DNA of 64,000 bases, from contig WHTT01000019.1 in assembly GCA_009377605.1 (NCBI GenBank), positions 1 to 64,000 on the forward strand, in the 5' to 3' direction. How positions within the stretch are numbered: the first letter of the stretch is position 1; every line of letters begins with the position of its first letter. The DNA comes from Luteitalea sp. Lineage in GTDB: Bacteria > Acidobacteriota > Vicinamibacteria > Vicinamibacterales > Vicinamibacteraceae. Under the pieces are notes generated by a model. It saw nothing but the letters and a program-made list of their open reading frames with translations, was not told where the DNA came from and did not search any database. This document shows, one piece after another, positions 1,809 through 64,000 of this stretch. A program made the translations under genes and the position numbers.

Positions 1809-4009
1809 GACTGTTTTTCGGTCAGCCATTCGCGCAGCTTCGTCCAGCGGCGACGCGTGTGTGTCCCCTTCACGGCAATTGCCAGCGCGCGAGCCTGACC
1901 GATGAGCACGACGAGCTTCCGCCCGCGCGTGATCGCGGTATACAACAAGTTTCGCTGCAGCATGACATAGTGCTGCGTCGTCAACGGGATGACGACCGCC
2001 GGATACTCCGAGCCTTGTGCCTTGTGAATCGTGGTCGCATAGGCGAGAACGAGCCGATCGAGCTCGCCAAAATCGTAGGCCACCCGGCGCCCGTCGAAGG
2101 ACACGACTATCTCGCTGGCCGCCTGATCGACAGAGACGACCAGGCCAAGGTCGCCGTTGTACACCTCCTTCTCGTAGTCGTTCTCGACCTGCATGACCTT
2201 GTCGCCGACGCCGAAGGTGTAGCCGAACCGCTCGACAGCATCCGGGCCGGGCGGATTGAGCGCGCGCTGCAGCCCGACGTTGAGCGTCCGCGCGCCGAGG
2301 GAGCCGCGGTTCATCGGACAGAGCACCTGCACGTCGTGGAATGGATGCAGGCCGTAGCGTGTCGGGATCCGTTCGCAGATGACCTGCAGGAGCTTCCGCA
2401 TCGCGACGTCGGGGTCGTCGGCTTCGACGAAGTGGAAGTCCGACTCGGTGGAGCGACCGAGGTCGGGCATCTCGCCCTGGTTGATTCGATGGGCATTGAC
2501 AATGATGCGACTGCTCGCCGCTTGGCGAAAGATGCTCGTGAGACGAACGACAGGGACGCGTGCCGAGCCAATCAGATCGGCGAGGACTTGGCCGGGACCA
2601 ACCGACGGCAACTGATCGGCATCGCCGACCAGTAGCAGCGCGGCACCGGGGCTGACGGCCCGCACCAGGCTCCACATCAGCGGCACATCGATCATCGAGA
2701 GCTCGTCGACAACGACGTGCTGGGCCTCCAGCGGATTCGATTCGTTCCGCCGAAACCGGCCCGTCCGCGGATTGACTTCGAGAAGGCGGTGAAGCGTCCG
2801 TGCCTCGAGGCCCGTTGCCTCCGACAGCCGCTTGGCCGCGCGCCCGGTAGGCGCCGCAAGGGCCGGCCGCACGCCCTTGGCGGCAAGCACCGCCACGATG
2901 GCCCGCAGCAACGTCGTCTTGCCGACGCCAGGGCCACCGGTGATGACCAGGACCTTCGTGCGAACCGCAGCGGCGAACGCCTCCGCCTGACGCTCCGAGA
3001 GGGTGAGGTGCAGCCGTGCCTCGACCCACGCGCGCGCCCGGTCGGTGTCGATCACCGGCCAGGGCGGCGCGCCCTGCGAGAGCTGGCGCAGCCGTTCGGC
3101 GAGCTGCCGCTCTGCGGAATGGAGCGCGGCGAGGAAGATGCACGGTTGGCTGTCGACCGTGTCGGCCGCGAGCGCTCCATCGGCCAGCTCGAGATCGAGG
3201 GCTTGTCCGACGATCTCCGACGAGACCCCGAGCTGTCGCGCACTCTCGGCCAGCAGCACATCGCGAGGCAGCCCGCAGTGTCCCTCGTCGAGCGCTTGGG
3301 CGAGCCGGTAGCCAAGCCCGGCACGCACGCGCATCATCGCCGTCTTTTCGATGCCGAGCCGCTCGGCAATCCGATCAGCGCTCAGGAAGCCCACGCCACG
3401 GATGTCACGGGCGAGCCGGTACGGATTCTCCGAGATCGTCTTGACGGCATCGATGCCGTAGGTCTTGAAGATGCGCACGGCACGCGCAGTGCCGACACCG
3501 TGCTGGTGCAAGAACAGCATGATGTCGCGAATCGCCCGCTGCTCCCGCCAACCGGCGGCAATACTGGACGCGCGAACTGGGCCCACGCCAGGCACGTCAC
3601 GCAGGCGATCCGGCTCGCGCTCGATGATGTCGAAGACCTCGGCACCGAATGCCGCCACCAGCTGCTTGGCGTAATGACGGCCAATGCCCTTGATCAATCC
3701 CGAGGCCAGATAGCGCTCGACGGCCTCGGCCGAGTCCGGCGGCGCCACACGGAGCCAATCCGCTTTGAACTGCAGGCCATGCGTGCGATCGTTCACCCAT
3801 CGACCTGTGGCCTGCACCTGCTCGCCAGGAGCGATGCTCGCCGCGCAGCCAATCAGCGCGACGAGGTCGCGCCGTCCCCGAACCTGTACCCGGACAACGC
3901 AGAACCCGGTCTCGAGATTGTGGAACGTCACGCGCTCCACCGCACCAGAAAGGAATTCTCGGGAATCGGGATTCGGGATTCGGCCCTTCGACCCTTCGAC
4001 TGCGCTCAC
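1805..4009 (-). CDS. recD2: RecD2-type ATP-dependent DNA helicase
   Basis: A 5'-3' superfamily 1B helicase of the RecD2/TraA class, acting in DNA repair without RecBC. The 734-residue protein has an N-terminal OB-like region (about 20-85), tandem helix-hairpin-helix segments (about 90-200), Walker A GGPGVGKTT, Walker B with DELSM, and a C-terminal UvrD-like TIHKAQGSEYPAVV motif. These are the standard family elements and the length is typical. The first dozen or so codons run through a heptamer tandem array, so the true start could lie slightly downstream. The TAG stop is supplied by the palindromic repeat at its 3' end. Confidence 0.95.
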   Translation of the reverse strand: MSAVEGSKGRIPNPDSREFLSGAVERVTFHNLETGFCVVRVQVRGRRDLVALIGCAASIAPGEQVQATGRWVNDRTHGLQFKADWLRVAPPDSAEAVERYLASGLIKGIGRHYAKQLVAAFGAEVFDIIEREPDRLRDVPGVGPVRASSIAAGWREQRAIRDIMLFLHQHGVGTARAVRIFKTYGIDAVKTISENPYRLARDIRGVGFLSADRIAERLGIEKTAMMRVRAGLGYRLAQALDEGHCGLPRDVLLAESARQLGVSSEIVGQALDLELADGALAADTVDSQPCIFLAALHSAERQLAERLRQLSQGAPPWPVIDTDRARAWVEARLHLTLSERQAEAFAAAVRTKVLVITGGPGVGKTTLLRAIVAVLAAKGVRPALAAPTGRAAKRLSEATGLEARTLHRLLEVNPRTGRFRRNESNPLEAQHVVVDELSMIDVPLMWSLVRAVSPGAALLLVGDADQLPSVGPGQVLADLIGSARVPVVRLTSIFRQAASSRIIVNAHRINQGEMPDLGRSTESDFHFVEADDPDVAMRKLLQVICERIPTRYGLHPFHDVQVLCPMNRGSLGARTLNVGLQRALNPPGPDAVERFGYTFGVGDKVMQVENDYEKEVYNGDLGLVVSVDQAASEIVVSFDGRRVAYDFGELDRLVLAYATTIHKAQGSEYPAVVIPLTTQHYVMLQRNLLYTAITRGRKLVVLIGQARALAIAVKGTHTRRRWTKLREWLTEKQS

Positions 4010-4077
4010 TTGCTTATTCCTGGTTCTTGGTCCCTGGTTCCCGTTTCCCGATTCCTGAATCCTGAACCCCGATCACG
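3961..4077. repeat. Degenerate heptamer arrays at a gene junction
   Basis: Two arrays of 7-nt period flank the boundary of the Gfo-type gene and recD2. At 3961-4002 the units follow GGGATTC and drift to GACCCTTC forms. At 4022-4077 eight units in register follow GGTTCTT, GGTCCCT, GATTCCT and relatives. The right array encodes the last residues of the oxidoreductase and the left one the first residues of recD2. Confidence 0.8.
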
Positions 4078-14284: not shown

Positions 14285-15047
14285 GAAGATATTGTACCTC
14301 ACGGTTTTCGTTGCCTGCGGAGTTCCCTCTACAGTCGCTGCGGCGCTCCTGCCAGCTTCGAGAGCCGTGACCGCCCTGGCTCAGACATCGTTAACGCCAG
14401 ATCCTGATGCGCTCTATGCCGAGCGAGAAGACCCTGACAAGGCGCGTTCGGCGGTCGAGATCTGGCAGGCACGCGCTGCTGCTGATCCGACTGATTTCGA
14501 GTCCACCTGGAAGGTCGCACGAGCGATGTACTGGATCGGTAGCCACGGCCCCAAGGAGGCCAGACGGGCGGATCTCGAGGTCGGGATGAAGGCCGCACGC
14601 GAAGCCATCGCGCTGAACGAGAACCGCCCGGAGGGACACTTCTGGCTCGCGGCCACGATGGGCAAGCTCGCGGAGGACTCCAGGATGGCCGGTCTCCGGT
14701 ACCGCGGCGCAATCAAGGAGGAGTTGGAAACGGTATTGCGCCTCGATCCCGCCTTCCAGCAGGGCTCCGCGGATCGCGCGCTCGGCCGCTGGTACTATCG
14801 CGTGCCTGGCCTGTTCGGTGGCAGCAAGGAGAAGTCCGAGCAGCACCTCCGGCAGTCATTGAAGTACAACCCGAACAGCACGGCAACTCTCTTCTTCCTG
14901 GCCGAGACCCTCATCGCGCTGGACCGGAAAGAGGAGGCGCGCACGACGCTCGAAAAGCTGCTCGCCGCGCCGGCAGATTCGGAGTGGGGCCCGGAAGACC
15001 GCGAGTTCAAGGCGGCGGGCTCGAAGCTGCGGGGGGATCTGGAGTGA
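14283..15047 (+). CDS. Secreted TPR-type protein
   Basis: A 254-residue protein with an N-terminal hydrophobic signal-like segment (about 1-35, ending near ALAQT). Repeated helical pairs follow, for example [38 protein letters not shown] and [19 protein letters not shown], typical of tetratricopeptide repeats. It is probably an exported or membrane-anchored scaffold of unknown partner. The ATG overlaps folE's ATG on the other strand; TTG 14292 is a possible alternative. The stop codon lies in the first unit of an octamer array. Confidence 0.75.
14291..14296 (-). promoter_or_regulatory. TACAAT -10 box, leaderless folE
   Basis: On the minus strand TACAAT is followed by six bases and then ATG 14284 of folE. 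The box lies inside the first codons of the divergent TPR gene. Confidence 0.5.
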
Positions 15048-15190
15048 CAGGGTGAGGGGGTGACAAGGTGAGGGGGTGAGGGGGTGACAAGGTGACAAGG
15101 TGACCGCGGGGCCTGAAGGCCCCGCGCTACAGACGCTCAAACGACCCCGTCACCTTGTCACCTTGTCACCTTGTCACCTTGTCACCCTTG
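15043..15190. repeat. Facing octamer arrays between convergent genes
   Basis: From 15051 to 15106 seven units of GGTGACAA or GGTGAGGG keep exact 8-nt register. From 15147 to 15186 five units of the complement, TTGTCACC, run the other way. Between them, 15105-15126 is a palindrome CGCGGGGCCT-ga-AGGCCCCGCG followed by CTAC, a relative of family A. The TPR gene's TGA stop falls in the first degenerate unit. The arms could pair into a stem of up to about 40 bp and act as a bidirectional terminator. Confidence 0.9.
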
Positions 15191-39379: not shown

Positions 39380-39553
39380 GAGGTGACGGGGGTGACAAGG
39401 TGATGGGGTGACAAGGTGAGGGGTGACAAGGTGACAAGGTGATAGGGTGGCTCGAGGGCACGTGGCAAACATCGAGCGGCATAGACGCGTCGCCGCATTC
39501 ACCCGATGCTCGAATCACCCGGTCACCTTGTCACCCCGTCACCCCATCACCCT
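39375..39553. repeat. Facing octamer arrays between convergent genes
   Basis: From 39375 to 39450 about nine GGTGACAA or GGTGAGGG units run rightward, with two units of 7 or 9 nt. From about 39516 to 39553 the complementary units run leftward. Both flanking genes stop inside the first unit: the NUDIX gene at 39377-39379 and the YjbQ gene at 39549-39547. It has the same layout and word as 15043-15190, with 65 nt of unrelated DNA in the middle. Confidence 0.9.
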
Positions 39554-39969: not shown

Positions 39970-40090
39970 GGCTCTTGGTTCTTGGTTCTTGGTTCTTGGT
40001 TCTTCGTGCGATGGCGCCCCGATGCTTCACCGCGGCCCCTGCGTGCGCCGCCGCACCAAGCACCAGGGACTATGGACCAAGGACCAAATT
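39970..40090. repeat. Two heptamer arrays upstream of yjbQ and at the tsaD end
   Basis: 39970-40004 is five units of GGTTCTT in register, directly upstream of the minus-strand yjbQ gene. 40056-40090 is five degenerate units related to CCAAGGA, also in exact 7-nt register. The TAG stop of tsaD (40072-40070) falls in the second array. Confidence 0.85.
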
Positions 40091-57963: not shown

Positions 57964-58842
57964 CTATCCCCCCTTCGACAAATCGAAGGGCTCCGGTGCC
58001 TTGTACGTCTCTGGTCCGGTCGCCTTTGTCCCGCCCGTCGGGACCTCTCGTCCAAGGGCCCAGTAGATGGCGTTGATGAGCAGGCGACGCATCGATTCCT
58101 GCTCGAAGTCCGCTGGGTGACCGAGCGTGGTGAAAAAGACGCGTGCGCCTCGGTACGTGCGCGTCCAGGCGACCGGCTGGGTGAGCGGGAACTCGTCCTG
58201 ACGGTCCAGCTGACTCGAGTCGATGCTGGTGCCATCGAGGAGAATCGTGTTGTCGTCACCGTGCAGCGGCGCCACATGGTACAGCCACGAGCGCGCCCGG
58301 AACGGCCCCACGCCTCGCAAGATGGGGTGCGCGCCGCCGCCCTCATGAATGGTCACGTCGGTGCTGGACTCATGACCGTGGTGCACGATCCATTGCTGAC
58401 CGAAGACGTCCCGCCCAAAGCCGTCGTTGAGCTCTTGATGGGGATGCCCGTCGGGATACTGGAATGCGTGCGTGGTCGTGCGCAGGCCGATCATCGGTTT
58501 CCCCGACTTCGCGAAATCGAGGATGTGCTGTAGCTCCGCATCCGGTAGCTGCCGGAAGCGCGTGAAGATCACCATGAGATCGGCGGTGTCGACCACCTCC
58601 AGCCCCTCGATATGATCCTTGGTCTGCGGCTTGGGCTTGGCGTACGCGACGGACGTCCGCATGCCGTGCTCGTCGGAAAGGATCTTTGCGATCATCGGCA
58701 TCGTGACCTCGGAGCGATACTCATCATCGCCCGTCACGAACGCCACGTGCGGCCTTGCGCGCGCGGTCTGTGCCTCTGCGCTACGCACCGCAACCACCAA
58801 GAACGAGAAGACCACGAACAGCACAAAGAAATAGCGTGGCAA
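57964..58842 (-). CDS. Secreted ThuA-domain protein
   Basis: A 292-residue ThuA-type protein (class I glutamine-amidotransferase-like fold, linked to trehalose or other sugar use). The signal peptide, MPRYFFVLFVVFSFLVV, is encoded by a degenerate nonamer array. HVAFVTGDDEYRSE, IGLRTTTHAF and WYHVAPLHGDDN-like segments are the family landmarks. It is the last gene of the minus-strand cluster. Function is unproven. Confidence 0.87.
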   Translation of the reverse strand: MPRYFFVLFVVFSFLVVAVRSAEAQTARARPHVAFVTGDDEYRSEVTMPMIAKILSDEHGMRTSVAYAKPKPQTKDHIEGLEVVDTADLMVIFTRFRQLPDAELQHILDFAKSGKPMIGLRTTTHAFQYPDGHPHQELNDGFGRDVFGQQWIVHHGHESSTDVTIHEGGGAHPILRGVGPFRARSWLYHVAPLHGDDNTILLDGTSIDSSQLDRQDEFPLTQPVAWTRTYRGARVFFTTLGHPADFEQESMRRLLINAIYWALGREVPTGGTKATGPETYKAPEPFDLSKGG

Positions 58843-58910
58843 CCTTGACCCCTTGACCCCTTGACCCCTTGACCCCTTGATCCCTTGATCCCTTGACCCT
58901 GCCCCTACTC
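58786..58910. repeat. Nonamer and octamer arrays between thuA and the propeller gene
   Basis: 58786-58830 holds degenerate 9-nt units (CACAAAGAA, CACGAACAG, CGAGAAGAC) that encode the ThuA signal peptide on the minus strand. 58843-58905 holds eight units of an octamer, minus-strand AGGGGTCA, in register. The TAG stop of the propeller gene (58907-58905) falls in the last, degenerate unit. Confidence 0.85.
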
Positions 58911-61900
58911 CCTGGCCCCTTGCCCGTCAGTGGACTCCGCCGGCCTGGTGACCTGCATCACGCCGTTCATCGTGCGCCAATGGCCGGGGAACGTGCAGAC
59001 GAACGGATAACTGTCGGGCGTGCTGGGCGCAGTGAACCGCAACCGCGCGGTCTCCTTCGGGCCAATGAGCTTGGTTGCAAAGAGCACGTCGGGCGTGTCC
59101 GGAACGAAGCTCTTCGCAAAGGCGTCCGGCTTTGCAGCCATCGCCTCAGCCTCGAGGCTGACCGTCTCCATCGCGCCGGGCGACGTGATGAGCAAGTTGT
59201 GCGGCATCTCGTCCGGATTGACGAAGACAATCTCCACTTCTTGCCCCGCCTCGACGCTGAAGCGCTCGATGTCGAATCGCATCTGCGCAGAGACGGCCTC
59301 GATTCGTATCGTGCGCACGAGCAAGGTATCCAGCGCAGAAGTGATCCGTTCCTTGTCTGCTGGCGGCAGCGCTCCGGCGAGCTGGCGACCGAGCTCGGTC
59401 GCTTGCTTGAACGCCGTGTCGGTTCGTTCTTCCGGCGGTATTTCGCCGGCGTAGCCGACAAGGCTCTGCGCGAGCGGTGCTATCTGCGGTCGTGGCCAAC
59501 GCTCCTGTGGCCTGCGGCGAATCGCCTCGATCGCGGCTGCCTGGTCGCTGCCGTCACGGATGAGGCCGGCCAGGCGCGAGAAGATCTCCGCGTCGTGGCC
59601 GGGCACGTGCGACAGGGCCCGTATCGCGGATGCCCGCACGTTGGTTGCCGCGCCCGACGATGAGCCACCAGAGGCGCTCTGTTCGTTCAACAGCTTGGTG
59701 ATGTGTGGGTACGAGGACGCCAGGAGTCTCTGATCCTGGAGCATGGACGTGCCCTCGAGCAGGTCGATGCGACTTTGTGAAGATGCGGAGGCGAGCTGCC
59801 AGGCACGCTCCACACTCTCGTCCGCCAGCACAATGGCAGCAAAGGCGCCCTGTCGCACGTTGTCGCTCTTCCCCTGGAGGGCCAGTTGCTCCAAGCGGGG
59901 CCTGATGGGAACGAGCGCCGCGGCATCGGCGGCCAGCAACATGCGTATCAATTCGTCGCTCACATCGGGATCATCCCGAGCATCGTCGCGAGGGTCGTCT
60001 TCGCTCTCTCGACCGGCGCGCCCTCCCTCCGGCTCGGTGCCGTCGATCCGGTCGATGGCGGCCGTGAGCTCCGCCAGCGGCTGCGTCCCGTTCAGCGCAG
60101 CCAGACCTTCCAGCGCCGTTTGCCGCGCCTTCGGCTCGATGCCGGGGCGGCTGAGCAAGGCGTGATAGACCGCCTTGCTGCCGGGAAGTGATGCGAGCTC
60201 GGCCGGCTCGAGTTGGTCGAGCAAATAGGTCATCGCTCGAGGGTCTGCCGTCAGCGATCGGCCGTCCGTGAGCTCGCGCCTCCATACCGGCTTCAACGTT
60301 GTCATCGCGGAATCGAGGACGTACTCCAAGTAGTAGTCCATCGGGCTCTCGAGCGCTTGGAGCGCGACCTTGGCCGCGTCGACGGTCGGAATGAAGCTGA
60401 GCGCCCGTACCGCCTCGAGCCGCACGCGCGGCGCGGGATCGTGCACCATGCGCTGCAGCAACGCCATCGCCTGCTCTACACGGTCGTACCAGTGATGCAG
60501 CACCCGCACCGCCGCCGCCCGGGCCCGGAGCTCCTTTGCCTCGAGGAGGCGGTTCAGCAGGTCTTGCTTCACGACGTCGTGATGCTGGTACACCCACAAC
60601 GCCTCGAGCAGATGGTGCTCGTATTCCTCGTCTCCGGCATCGAGAGCGGCCACCCAGTCGTCGAGCGCGGCAACGAGCGCATCCGTCGGCTGCTCTCGGA
60701 GGGCACGCCGCGTCCAGTACCGAGTCCGGTCCTCTGGGGCCTTGAGTAACGCCAGGAGGGCTTCGATCGGTTGACCATCGATCCGAGGCGGATCCAGTAC
60801 CGGACGTCCCTTGGCAGTAATGCGCCAGACGCGGCCGTGCTTGTGGTCGCGTCGTGGATCGCGAAGCGAGTACTGCATGTGGCCAATGAGCGGATTGAAC
60901 CAGTCGACCACGTACAGCGCGCCGTCCGGCCCGAACTGCAGGTCTATGGGGCGAAAGTTGGTATCCGATGCCTGCAGGAGCGCCTCCACCTCTATCCCAA
61001 CGAAGCCCGAGCCCTTGTCTTCGACCCGGTACTGCTTGATGCCCTGAAATCCAATCACATTTGTCAGGAGAAAATTCCCTTGTGCTTCCTCAGGAAAGTG
61101 ACGGCTGCTGACGAGCTCGATGCCGGCGGTCGGGCGGACCTTGGTTCCGGTGGTCCACTGCTCCATCTCTTTCTGCTTTTTCGGGTAGTTCACATGGCCG
61201 GAGAATGCCGTCCCGTAATAATTGTTACCGTTCGACGCATCCGAGACAAAGCTCTGTCCCCAGCGGTCGATGACGTGTCCCCAGGGGTTCGCGAAGGGAT
61301 ACGAGACAAAGACGCTCAGTTTCTCCGTACGTGGCTCGTACCGGAGCACGGCCCCATATTCCACGCGGACGGGTCCGTAGGGTGTCTCGACCTGCGTGTG
61401 CAGGAACGTGCCTTCTTGGAAGTACAGCCCACCGCCCGGTCCCCACGTAAAGGCGCTCGCATTGTGATGGGCATCTTCCGTACCAAATCCGTGCAGGATG
61501 ATGCGTCGCTCATCGGCGCGATCATCGCCGTCGGTATCGCGCAAGAACATGAAATTCTGCTGCTGCGAGACGTACACCCCGCCGTCGCCAAGCTCGAATC
61601 CCATGGGGAGGTACAGGCCATCGGCAAATACCGTCCGCTTATCGGCACGACCGTCGCCATCGTTGTCCTCCAGGATGACCAGCTTGTCATTCGGCGCCAT
61701 GCCGGGGTGGTAGTGCGGATAGGTCGGCGACGTCATGACCCAGAGCCGCCCGCGCGAATCGAACGTCAAGGCGATCGCATTGGCGAGCTCTGGAAAGTCC
61801 TGCTCCGACGCGAACAGGTTGACCTCGTAGCCGTCGGCCACCTTCAGCCGTTGCAGCGCCACTTCCGGATCCATCGACGCGAGGTCGATCTCACCGCCGC

Positions 61901-62060
61901 GATTCGGTTCAGTGCTCTGCTCTTGGGCGCTGCCCGTGGGCACGATGAAGGACACGAAGAAGGTGAAGAGCACGAAGAAAGGCACACCACGAAGGACACG
62001 AAGAACACGAAGGGTCAACCACGAAGGACGCGAAGGGCACGAAGAATACACGGGGCTCAT
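58905..62060 (-). CDS. Secreted propeller-HEAT-cupredoxin protein
   Basis: A 1051-residue exported protein. After a signal peptide (about 1-45) comes a PVC-type six-bladed propeller (about 60-390; GYEVNLFASEQDFPELANAI, FDSRGRLWVMTSPTYPHYHP, FGPDGALYVVDWFNPLIGHM), then HEAT-like repeats (about 400-900), and a C-terminal cupredoxin domain. The copper ligands are visible as MPHN and VCTFPGHW followed by a methionine in GVMQV. No CxxCH heme motif is present, unlike many relatives. ATG 62060 overlaps the SGNH stop by 4 nt (ATGA). Role in sugar or glycan oxidation is inferred. Confidence 0.87.
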   Translation of the reverse strand: MSPVYSSCPSRPSWLTLRVLRVLRGVPFFVLFTFFVSFIVPTGSAQEQSTEPNRGGEIDLASMDPEVALQRLKVADGYEVNLFASEQDFPELANAIALTFDSRGRLWVMTSPTYPHYHPGMAPNDKLVILEDNDGDGRADKRTVFADGLYLPMGFELGDGGVYVSQQQNFMFLRDTDGDDRADERRIILHGFGTEDAHHNASAFTWGPGGGLYFQEGTFLHTQVETPYGPVRVEYGAVLRYEPRTEKLSVFVSYPFANPWGHVIDRWGQSFVSDASNGNNYYGTAFSGHVNYPKKQKEMEQWTTGTKVRPTAGIELVSSRHFPEEAQGNFLLTNVIGFQGIKQYRVEDKGSGFVGIEVEALLQASDTNFRPIDLQFGPDGALYVVDWFNPLIGHMQYSLRDPRRDHKHGRVWRITAKGRPVLDPPRIDGQPIEALLALLKAPEDRTRYWTRRALREQPTDALVAALDDWVAALDAGDEEYEHHLLEALWVYQHHDVVKQDLLNRLLEAKELRARAAAVRVLHHWYDRVEQAMALLQRMVHDPAPRVRLEAVRALSFIPTVDAAKVALQALESPMDYYLEYVLDSAMTTLKPVWRRELTDGRSLTADPRAMTYLLDQLEPAELASLPGSKAVYHALLSRPGIEPKARQTALEGLAALNGTQPLAELTAAIDRIDGTEPEGGRAGRESEDDPRDDARDDPDVSDELIRMLLAADAAALVPIRPRLEQLALQGKSDNVRQGAFAAIVLADESVERAWQLASASSQSRIDLLEGTSMLQDQRLLASSYPHITKLLNEQSASGGSSSGAATNVRASAIRALSHVPGHDAEIFSRLAGLIRDGSDQAAAIEAIRRRPQERWPRPQIAPLAQSLVGYAGEIPPEERTDTAFKQATELGRQLAGALPPADKERITSALDTLLVRTIRIEAVSAQMRFDIERFSVEAGQEVEIVFVNPDEMPHNLLITSPGAMETVSLEAEAMAAKPDAFAKSFVPDTPDVLFATKLIGPKETARLRFTAPSTPDSYPFVCTFPGHWRTMNGVMQVTRPAESTDGQGARE
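61947..62050. repeat. Nonamer array inside a coding sequence
   Basis: About eleven 9-nt units of CACGAAGAA, CACGAAGGA or CACGAAGGG, with two short interruptions. On the minus strand they encode the Leu, Val and Phe-rich signal peptide of the propeller-cupredoxin protein. The 9-nt period keeps the reading frame. Confidence 0.88.
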
Positions 62061-62995
62061 GGATAGCGTATACCCTCGAGCGCCTCGGCGCTCCTCCAGA
62101 TTTCTCGGTCGAGCTCTTCCACCATGCGGTCGAGCTTCGTCATCTCTGGTGGGAAGTTGACCGAGCCAAACGGATCCACGCGGCGGCCCACGACATATTC
62201 GGCGTTCACCGGCCGCCAGCGGTAGAAGAACTGCTGGTTCTTCTCGCGGACCACTCCCCGCAACGCCTCGAGTTGCTCCAGTTGCGCGCCGCTCGCCGGG
62301 CGCATGTGGTCCGGGCCAAGCCCCAGCGCCTCCATCAAGATGCCCGCGACGAGCCGGTGGCCGTTCTCGTTGAGGTGAATGCCGTTGATCGTCAACGGCG
62401 CGGCGGCCTGCTCGATCAGACGCTTGGTTGGCGTGAACAGATCGGCGAACATGACGCCGTTCCGCACCGCGACCCGCCGCATCACCTCCGTATAGCTGGC
62501 AAGGTCCCGGTTGCGGCTCGCGACGTCGACCTGCTCGAGGCGCGGCAGTCGCTCGTGCGCAATAGGAGAAACCAGCACCACGCGTGGCGCTGATGTGCCG
62601 TTGTACGAACGTTGTAGATGTTCCTTTACGTACGCATCGAGATCGCGCTCGAACGTTGGGAGACCGGCGTCTCCCTCGAAGGATTCGTTCACGCCAAAGA
62701 ACGCGAGGATGACATCCGCCTTCTGCTCCTCGAGATGCGTCGGTGCAGCGGGGAAGTTCAGCGGCCGCGGCTGAAGCGTGATCGTATCCGCGCTCCATCC
62801 GAGATTGCGCATCGTGAGCTCGAGCTCCGGAAAGCGCGTCATGAGCAACGTTTCGAAATAGTTGAAATGTTGCATGCGCTCCGCCTGCGTGTTGCCGAGC
62901 AAGATGATGCGGTCACCTTTGCGAAGCTCCAGAGCGTGGGGTTGAGCCTGGGCTCCGGCGATCGACGACGCCATCAGCACCGCGCAGGCGAGCAT
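62057..62995 (-). CDS. Secreted SGNH/GDSL-type hydrolase
   Basis: A 312-residue esterase-like enzyme. It has a signal peptide (MLACAVLMASSIAGAQAQ, about 1-18), block I ILLGNTQAERM in which GNT replaces GDS, FFGVNESFEG as the Asn block, and the C-terminal NGIHLNENGH with the catalytic His. Such variants are typical of secreted sugar-ester hydrolases. ATG 62995 is chosen because the upstream frame runs over the family B repeat. Overlaps the propeller gene by 4 nt. Confidence 0.85.
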   Translation of the reverse strand: MLACAVLMASSIAGAQAQPHALELRKGDRIILLGNTQAERMQHFNYFETLLMTRFPELELTMRNLGWSADTITLQPRPLNFPAAPTHLEEQKADVILAFFGVNESFEGDAGLPTFERDLDAYVKEHLQRSYNGTSAPRVVLVSPIAHERLPRLEQVDVASRNRDLASYTEVMRRVAVRNGVMFADLFTPTKRLIEQAAAPLTINGIHLNENGHRLVAGILMEALGLGPDHMRPASGAQLEQLEALRGVVREKNQQFFYRWRPVNAEYVVGRRVDPFGSVNFPPEMTKLDRMVEELDREIWRSAEALEGIRYP

Positions 62996-63000
62996 CGGGA

Positions 63001-63063
63001 AAAAGGGGACAGGCCCCTTTCTCGTCCTGCGATCACCAGAAAAAGGGGTCCGTCCCCTTTTTC
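63001..63063. repeat. Two family B palindromes
   Basis: AAAGGGG-ACAGG-CCCCTTT near 63004-63022 and AAAAAGGGG-TCCGT-CCCCTTTTT at about 63040-63062, both with perfect stems. The first matches the copy at 13728 over 21 bases. They fill the gap between the TonB receptor stop and the SGNH start. Confidence 0.85.
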
Positions 63064-63066
63064 GTT

Positions 63067-64000
63067 TCACCACGAGAACCTCAATGACGCCTGCATGACG
63101 CGTGGCTGCCGGGTGCCGGTGACTTCTCCGAAACGCTCGTTCACCTGGTTGCCCTCCTCGTCGAAGTCCGCCCCGGTGTCAATACTCGAGAACTGCGTAT
63201 GATTGAACAGGTTGTACACTTCCCAGCGCAGCTGCAACGCACGGCGGTCGCCAAATGGGATGTTCTTGAAGAGCGTCAGGTCCCAGTTGTGCCAGCCGGG
63301 ATTGCGGATGATGTCGCGGCGCTGGTTGCCGTGCTCGCTGCGCGGCGGCACCTCTCCTTTTTCCGGACGACGAAAGACGGACGTGTCGAACCAGCTTTCG
63401 AGGCTGCGCTCGCCGCTCGACAACCGAGGATCACCCGTGACGCCGATACGGGTCCCATCGCCGCCGCCCGCAATGTCGGCCTCATCGGTTGTCGAGAACC
63501 CCACGCCGGTCGGCGTCCCGCTCGCGAACGCCGTGATCCCCGAGAGCTGCCAGTTGTCGAGCAGCGCGGCGACGAGAACGTTGTTCCACAGACGGCTCGC
63601 GCGCGGTAGATCCCAAGTGTAGTTGATGACGGCCACGTGGGTCTGGTCGTATCCGGAGAGACTATACGACCAGTCCCTTGCGTCCTGATACAAGGGCAGC
63701 CCCGCGCCATCGCCCGATCCCATATCGCGCGACCGCGACAGTGTGTATGCTACGCCAAACTGGAATCCCTGCGTGAATCGGCGGTTCACCTGCACCTGCA
63801 AGGCATCGTAGTTCGACTCGCCGGAGTTCTCGTAGAAGGTGATGCCGGCGTAGCCAGGAAACGGCCGGTAGAAATTGTCAGAGAGCGGTGTACCCGTGGT
63901 GACATCCTGGTTCGCCGACAGAAAACGCGCGCCGTAGGGCACGTTGTTGATGCTGCGCGACTGGGGCAAGCGCTCCCCGCGGCTGCCGACGTACGCAGCA
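63067..64000 (-). CDS. TonB-dependent receptor, C-terminal part
   Basis: The 3' end of a fifth receptor, open to the window edge; at least 310 residues. It contains barrel strands such as YVGSRGERLPQ, NYDALQVQVNRRFTQG and RWEVYNLFNHTQF, and ends in LRFSW with the C-terminal aromatic. The upstream part lies outside the window. It precedes the SGNH, propeller-cupredoxin and ThuA genes on the same strand, suggesting shared transcription, although repeats lie between. Confidence 0.88.
   Translation of the reverse strand, partial: AAYVGSRGERLPQSRSINNVPYGARFLSANQDVTTGTPLSDNFYRPFPGYAGITFYENSGESNYDALQVQVNRRFTQGFQFGVAYTLSRSRDMGSGDGAGLPLYQDARDWSYSLSGYDQTHVAVINYTWDLPRASRLWNNVLVAALLDNWQLSGITAFASGTPTGVGFSTTDEADIAGGGDGTRIGVTGDPRLSSGERSLESWFDTSVFRRPEKGEVPPRSEHGNQRRDIIRNPGWHNWDLTLFKNIPFGDRRALQLRWEVYNLFNHTQFSSIDTGADFDEEGNQVNERFGEVTGTRQPRVMQASLRFSW

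Follow-up and report, generated by a model that had tools for sequence, protein, structure and literature searches.

How does a tandem repeat come to lie across the predicted signal peptide of a conserved protein? The question is raised by one locus in the window, that is, the whole 64,000-nucleotide stretch of Luteitalea sp. DNA analyzed here, where an array of the nonamer CACGAAGnn lies within the first 40 codons of a minus-strand gene for a DUF7133/HEAT/cupredoxin protein. The features concerned are the following:

61941..62044, plus strand: CACGAAGnn array in three out-of-phase blocks, with seven exact units and two units with one mismatch.
58905..62060, minus strand: gene for an exported DUF7133/HEAT/copper-binding (plastocyanin-type) protein, assigned from Pfam and from orthologues in genomes G002-G006.
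61926..62060, minus strand: signal peptide MSPVYSSCPSRPSWLTLRVLRVLRGVPFFVLFTFFVSFIVPTGSA, with predicted cleavage before QEQ, based on the sequence and on orthologues with the same position and A-Q junction.
62057..63073, minus strand: upstream SGNH/GDSL hydrolase gene, assigned from Pfam and from its junction with the DUF7133 gene in five relatives; its 5' end possibly lies further in, e.g. at 62995.

Firstly, the array is real and lies far beyond chance expectation. In the window, (CACGAAGnn)3 is matched by three 25-mers at 61953-62044 (0, 1 and 3 mismatches), and 100 dinucleotide-shuffled versions of the full stretch yielded no match. The exact CACGAAG units are located (plus-strand coordinates) at 61953-61959, 61971-61977, 61988-61994, 61997-62003, 62006-62012, 62020-62026 and 62038-62044, and those with one mismatch at 62029-62035 and 61941-61947. 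The original prediction spoke of about eleven units; the array exists, but that number is reached only if units with two mismatches are admitted. On the minus strand, successive exact and one-mismatch units start 9, 9, 14, 9, 9, 17, 18 and 12 nt apart. These spacings break the 9-nt phase, so that the array is not a single run but consists of three blocks, each in a reading frame of its own (PSR / LRV / FV). Translated from the ATG at 62060, the blocks read SSC-PSR-PSW, then LRV-LRV-LRG, then FFVLFTFFVSFIV. Thus, the array supplies both a basic n-region and a hydrophobic core, in different frames, and the core is encoded by the third block only, which is the most degenerate one.

Secondly, the N-terminus that results has the make-up of a Sec-type signal peptide according to a simple rule score (all signal peptides were judged with simple rule scripts): the basic n-region LRVLRVLRG, the hydrophobic h-region FFVLFTFFVSFIV, and GSA, which places small residues at -3/-1. 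The array-encoded peptide would function in export and be cleaved after TGSA. The stop codon of the SGNH gene (62057-62059) and the ATG of the DUF7133 gene (62058-62060) overlap as ATGA. Orthologues of the DUF7133 gene, ~60% identical over the matched region, are present in five genomes of a sister genus (G002-G006), and in all five the SGNH gene precedes it, with a stop/start offset of -1 in three relatives and +2 in two; the offset in the window is -1. Such an overlapping or abutting junction leaves little or no gap for an array, which therefore lies within the signal-peptide codons. In each of the five orthologues the signal peptide contains no array and is 27-49 residues long up to an EPNRG motif; its position and role are the same. 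At the likely cleavage site, before EPNRG, they have A-Q, for which the counterpart in the window is SA-QEQSTEPNRG. Because the orthologues have signal peptides in place, and because the junction between the SGNH stop and the DUF7133 start is kept, both the start and the export role are well supported. These relatives thus bear out two points of the original prediction, namely that the overlap fixes the start codon and that the array encodes the signal peptide. The only homologue in a genome of the same genus (G001) is more distant, being 51% identical over half of the protein. A filled versus an empty site could be recognized at the nucleotide level in no close relative, the nearest orthologues being the ~60% identical ones.

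The array might nevertheless be a non-coding intergenic repeat, with the true start located downstream of it. There is precedent for false extensions of this kind: the arrays upstream of three other genes (L036, L039 and L052) were not accepted as coding, since the proteins look cytoplasmic and their starts lie after the array. In addition, GTG codons are present in frame within the array at our locus. However, in the close orthologues translation begins at the SGNH stop and a signal peptide is present, and none of the starts downstream of the array leaves space for a signal peptide. We consider a downstream start quite unlikely, and the ATG at 62060 is very probably the correct one, although a TTG start at 62018 would give an equally good predicted signal peptide.

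As for the origin of the array, the word CACGAAGnn is dispersed in this genome, with 50 exact 25-mers against one for the reversed control, and a looser search placed the parent element at about 36 sites. Most copies are palindromic, with a CACGAAG arm separated by an AT-rich loop from a CTTCGTG arm. Among 34 copies in the sampled sequence, 29 have a facing stop codon at most 35 bp away; for intergenic positions drawn at random the figure was 17%. Copies are frequent between convergent genes, and none was found between divergent genes in this genome. Three intact copies fold as long hairpins (z -7 to -14), and no T run was seen by eye beyond the distal arm in the copies inspected, so that, despite its hairpins, the element is not a classical intrinsic terminator. 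Intact copies likely act at the 3' ends of transcripts, in termination or protection. The arms vary in length, which argues against a MITE with a fixed unit. The parent element is a dispersed palindromic nonamer array and not an export device. Complementarity between the spacers of the two arms, as a sign of a selected RNA structure, was not significant (25/74 versus 20.5 expected, p=0.11) in a rough test in which some loci were counted through overlapping copies. The behavior is shared by arrays of periods 7 and 8: an inverted partner lies no more than 250 bp from 159 of 241 intergenic arrays of period 7-9, and the reversed control gave 4. Within the window, palindromic arrays of period 7 or 8 with other words are located at gene junctions at 3959-4073, 15044-15186, 39389-39552 and 39973-40087. 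Arrays of CACGAAGnn also occur in Planctomycetota, Desulfobacterota, Chloroflexota, Acidobacteriota, Proteobacteria and other phyla (loci L088-L206), about half of them with an inverted arm. Nothing relevant on this word was found in the open-access literature.

The array at the DUF7133 gene shares with this element the tandem word and the location, since it lies 12 bp 3' of the SGNH stop, which is the facing-stop position typical of the dispersed copies. It lacks the inverted arm and the hairpin: no CTTCGTG arm is found near it, and its strand does not fold (z +1.46). With a single arm and this z value, it is a half element or a relic and not an intact copy. Alternatively, the array could have arisen in place, by replication slippage in F/V-rich signal codons, and be unrelated to the dispersed element. 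The degeneracy of the third block and the likewise F/V-rich signal peptide of the neighboring ThuA gene would fit such an origin. On the other hand, the word, the two-base spacers and the block boundaries (CTTCGTGGTTGA, CTTCGTGGTGTGCC) agree with the dispersed element, and repetition of amino acids does not explain blocks 1 and 2, as these are in other frames. We regard slippage as quite unlikely.

The ThuA region itself comprises two features:

57964..58842, minus strand: ThuA gene with an F/V-rich signal peptide and a TTG start, assigned from Pfam, its signal peptide being examined in a periodicity test.
58843..58899, no strand assigned: octamer array (CCTTGACC on the plus strand), directly upstream of the ThuA start.

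The ThuA signal peptide (LPRYFFVLFVVFSFLVVAVRSAEAQ) had been proposed to derive from a similar degenerate array. For its nonamer periodicity, comparison with codon shuffling gave a significant result (p=0.002) and comparison with synonymous recoding did not (p=0.13), and we rejected it as a second clear nonamer signal; it is weakly repeat-like, and the parallel with the DUF7133 array is unproven. The octamer array, with about seven near-perfect copies of GGGTCAAG on the minus strand, occupies the gap from the DUF7133 stop to the ThuA start and may provide a Shine-Dalgarno-like AAGGGG. In two ThuA orthologues from the sister genus (L210 and L211), the n-regions of the signals hold other short repeats (CAGGTCTCAGGTCA, GGCTCAAGGCTCA), a hint at recurrent intrusion of arrays into the ThuA operon.

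Based on this, we favor, with a probability of roughly 80%, the reading that an arm of the CACGAAGnn repeat has been exapted as the signal peptide of the DUF7133 gene. A copy of the palindromic element, or one arm of it, would have arrived at its habitual site just 3' of the SGNH stop, either landing there by insertion or growing there by expansion in situ. As the next gene starts on that stop without an intergenic gap, the array would have fallen into the DUF7133 signal codons. In the direction of the gene the arm is CTTCGTGnn, one frame of which would give the cationic LRV and another an FV-rich hydrophobic stretch, and the phase breaks would have placed the LRV block ahead of the FV-rich one, as an n-region and an h-region that replaced the ancestral signal peptide. 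We propose that a single arm was tolerated in these codons because it spelled a working signal.

Some other loci look like further captures. In the genome of the window, the start of a TPR protein (L060) lies within the distal arm of a complete palindrome. Signal peptides are present at the equivalent point in every one of its orthologues in G001-G004; the only start codons available to L060 are TTG and GTG, which leave a poor n-region. For a similar TPR protein with an array (L061), no orthologues were detected. In another genus, the lipoprotein signal PFVFVAFVSFVLHFGC of L234 is encoded by nonamers, and orthologues of this gene have ordinary lipoprotein signals. A distant orthologue of L234 (L275, genome G012) has its signal, MKCPLLSAFCPLLSALCTLLLLPSC, written in an array of the heptamer CTCTGCC type with an inverted arm just upstream, so this family appears to use a nonamer array in one member and a heptamer array in another. 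L234 is the sole survivor among the array-overlapping signal-like ORFs examined elsewhere, those at L057, L100, L139, L170, L230 and L253 being, by eye, probable antisense or spurious frames. In a CcmF-like gene, identified by eye (L064, 1052-3520), the first hydrophobic segment, TFVLFVTFVT, lies in a nonamer-like repeat. Whether palindromic arrays of 7-9 nt after stop codons repeatedly give rise to new signal peptides in nature within this group is doubtful, and we put it forward tentatively; if true, repeat capture would turn over the signal peptides of tightly packed genes.

The original prediction went further, proposing that 9-nt repeats may serve as ready-made export signals, and it called for a genome-wide search for signals encoded by nonamers. 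The results of our survey, which covered 1.86 Mb of the genome of the window taken in stretches, do not agree with this generalization. Part of the sampled sequence had been chosen for its nonamer arrays, so array counts are inflated if anything, and the gene caller and signal rules were simple scripts whose individual calls are approximate. There were 315 short-period arrays, of which 236 were intergenic, 34 lay in the last 90 nt of a gene, 29 were internal and 16 lay in the first 90 nt; gene 3' ends are thus invaded twice as often as 5' ends. Arrays were present in 4 of 371 signal-peptide-like genes (~1%), which is not clearly above other N-termini. Once spurious ORFs had been removed, roughly half of the arrays of period 7-9 at N-termini were in signal genes, versus a baseline of 26%, numbers too small for a claim of enrichment. 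Takeover of an export signal by a repeat is rare in this genome. The arms do have a weak intrinsic propensity for hydrophobic readings: a hydrophobic stretch was found in 18 of 57 CTTCGTG-sense arms (32%), versus 12% for shuffled sequences and 10% for intergenic DNA, and complete readings with n- and h-regions were not clearly enriched in these arms (10.5% versus 6-7%). That the arrays are a dedicated, reusable export module, retained for encoding signal peptides, is very improbable, since despite this propensity and three or four captures (the window, L060, L061 and L234) they lie mostly outside signal peptides, after stop codons and with hairpins that a coding module would not need. Their placement and counts point to occasional raw material instead.

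The DUF7133 case offers an orthologue-supported route from non-coding repeat DNA to a functional part of a protein, in which two usable frames of a repeat happen to encode both halves of an export signal. The case also points to a class of palindromic short-period arrays, abundant and placed after stop codons, of which we found no published description in the open-access literature, and to a nonamer word that recurs in many bacterial phyla. Several known systems resemble it in part. Rickettsia palindromic elements are inserts of 105-146 bp in many protein genes (PMC2229807) and are likewise read in frame in conserved proteins, whereas our array is a tandem one and confined to the signal peptide. 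The cyanobacterial STRR sequences, usually 7-bp repeats of unknown function, resemble the parent element in being intergenic, short-period and hairpin-capable, and one described array lies close to where the upstream gene ends; the part of that source considered here describes no signal-peptide role (PMC2670836). In yeast, random sequences could stand in for the secretion signal of invertase (Kaiser et al. 1987, as cited in PMC4585086), which shows why an arbitrary hydrophobic N-terminus can serve for export, albeit under laboratory selection and not by natural capture of a repeat. The closest likeness is Yersinia YPO1552, whose predicted signal peptide derives partly from the YPAL/RU-2 element (Delihas 2007, PMC2229807), an intergenic palindrome that is likewise dispersed and has been fused in frame. 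That element is MITE-like, measures 168 bp and is joined to a putative new protein, whereas ours is a single arm of a tandem nonamer array and lies in a conserved enzyme, the orthologues of which have normal signals. Thus, a predicted signal derived in part from a repeat was already known, and what is new is a tandem nonamer arm in place of the signal of a conserved enzyme.
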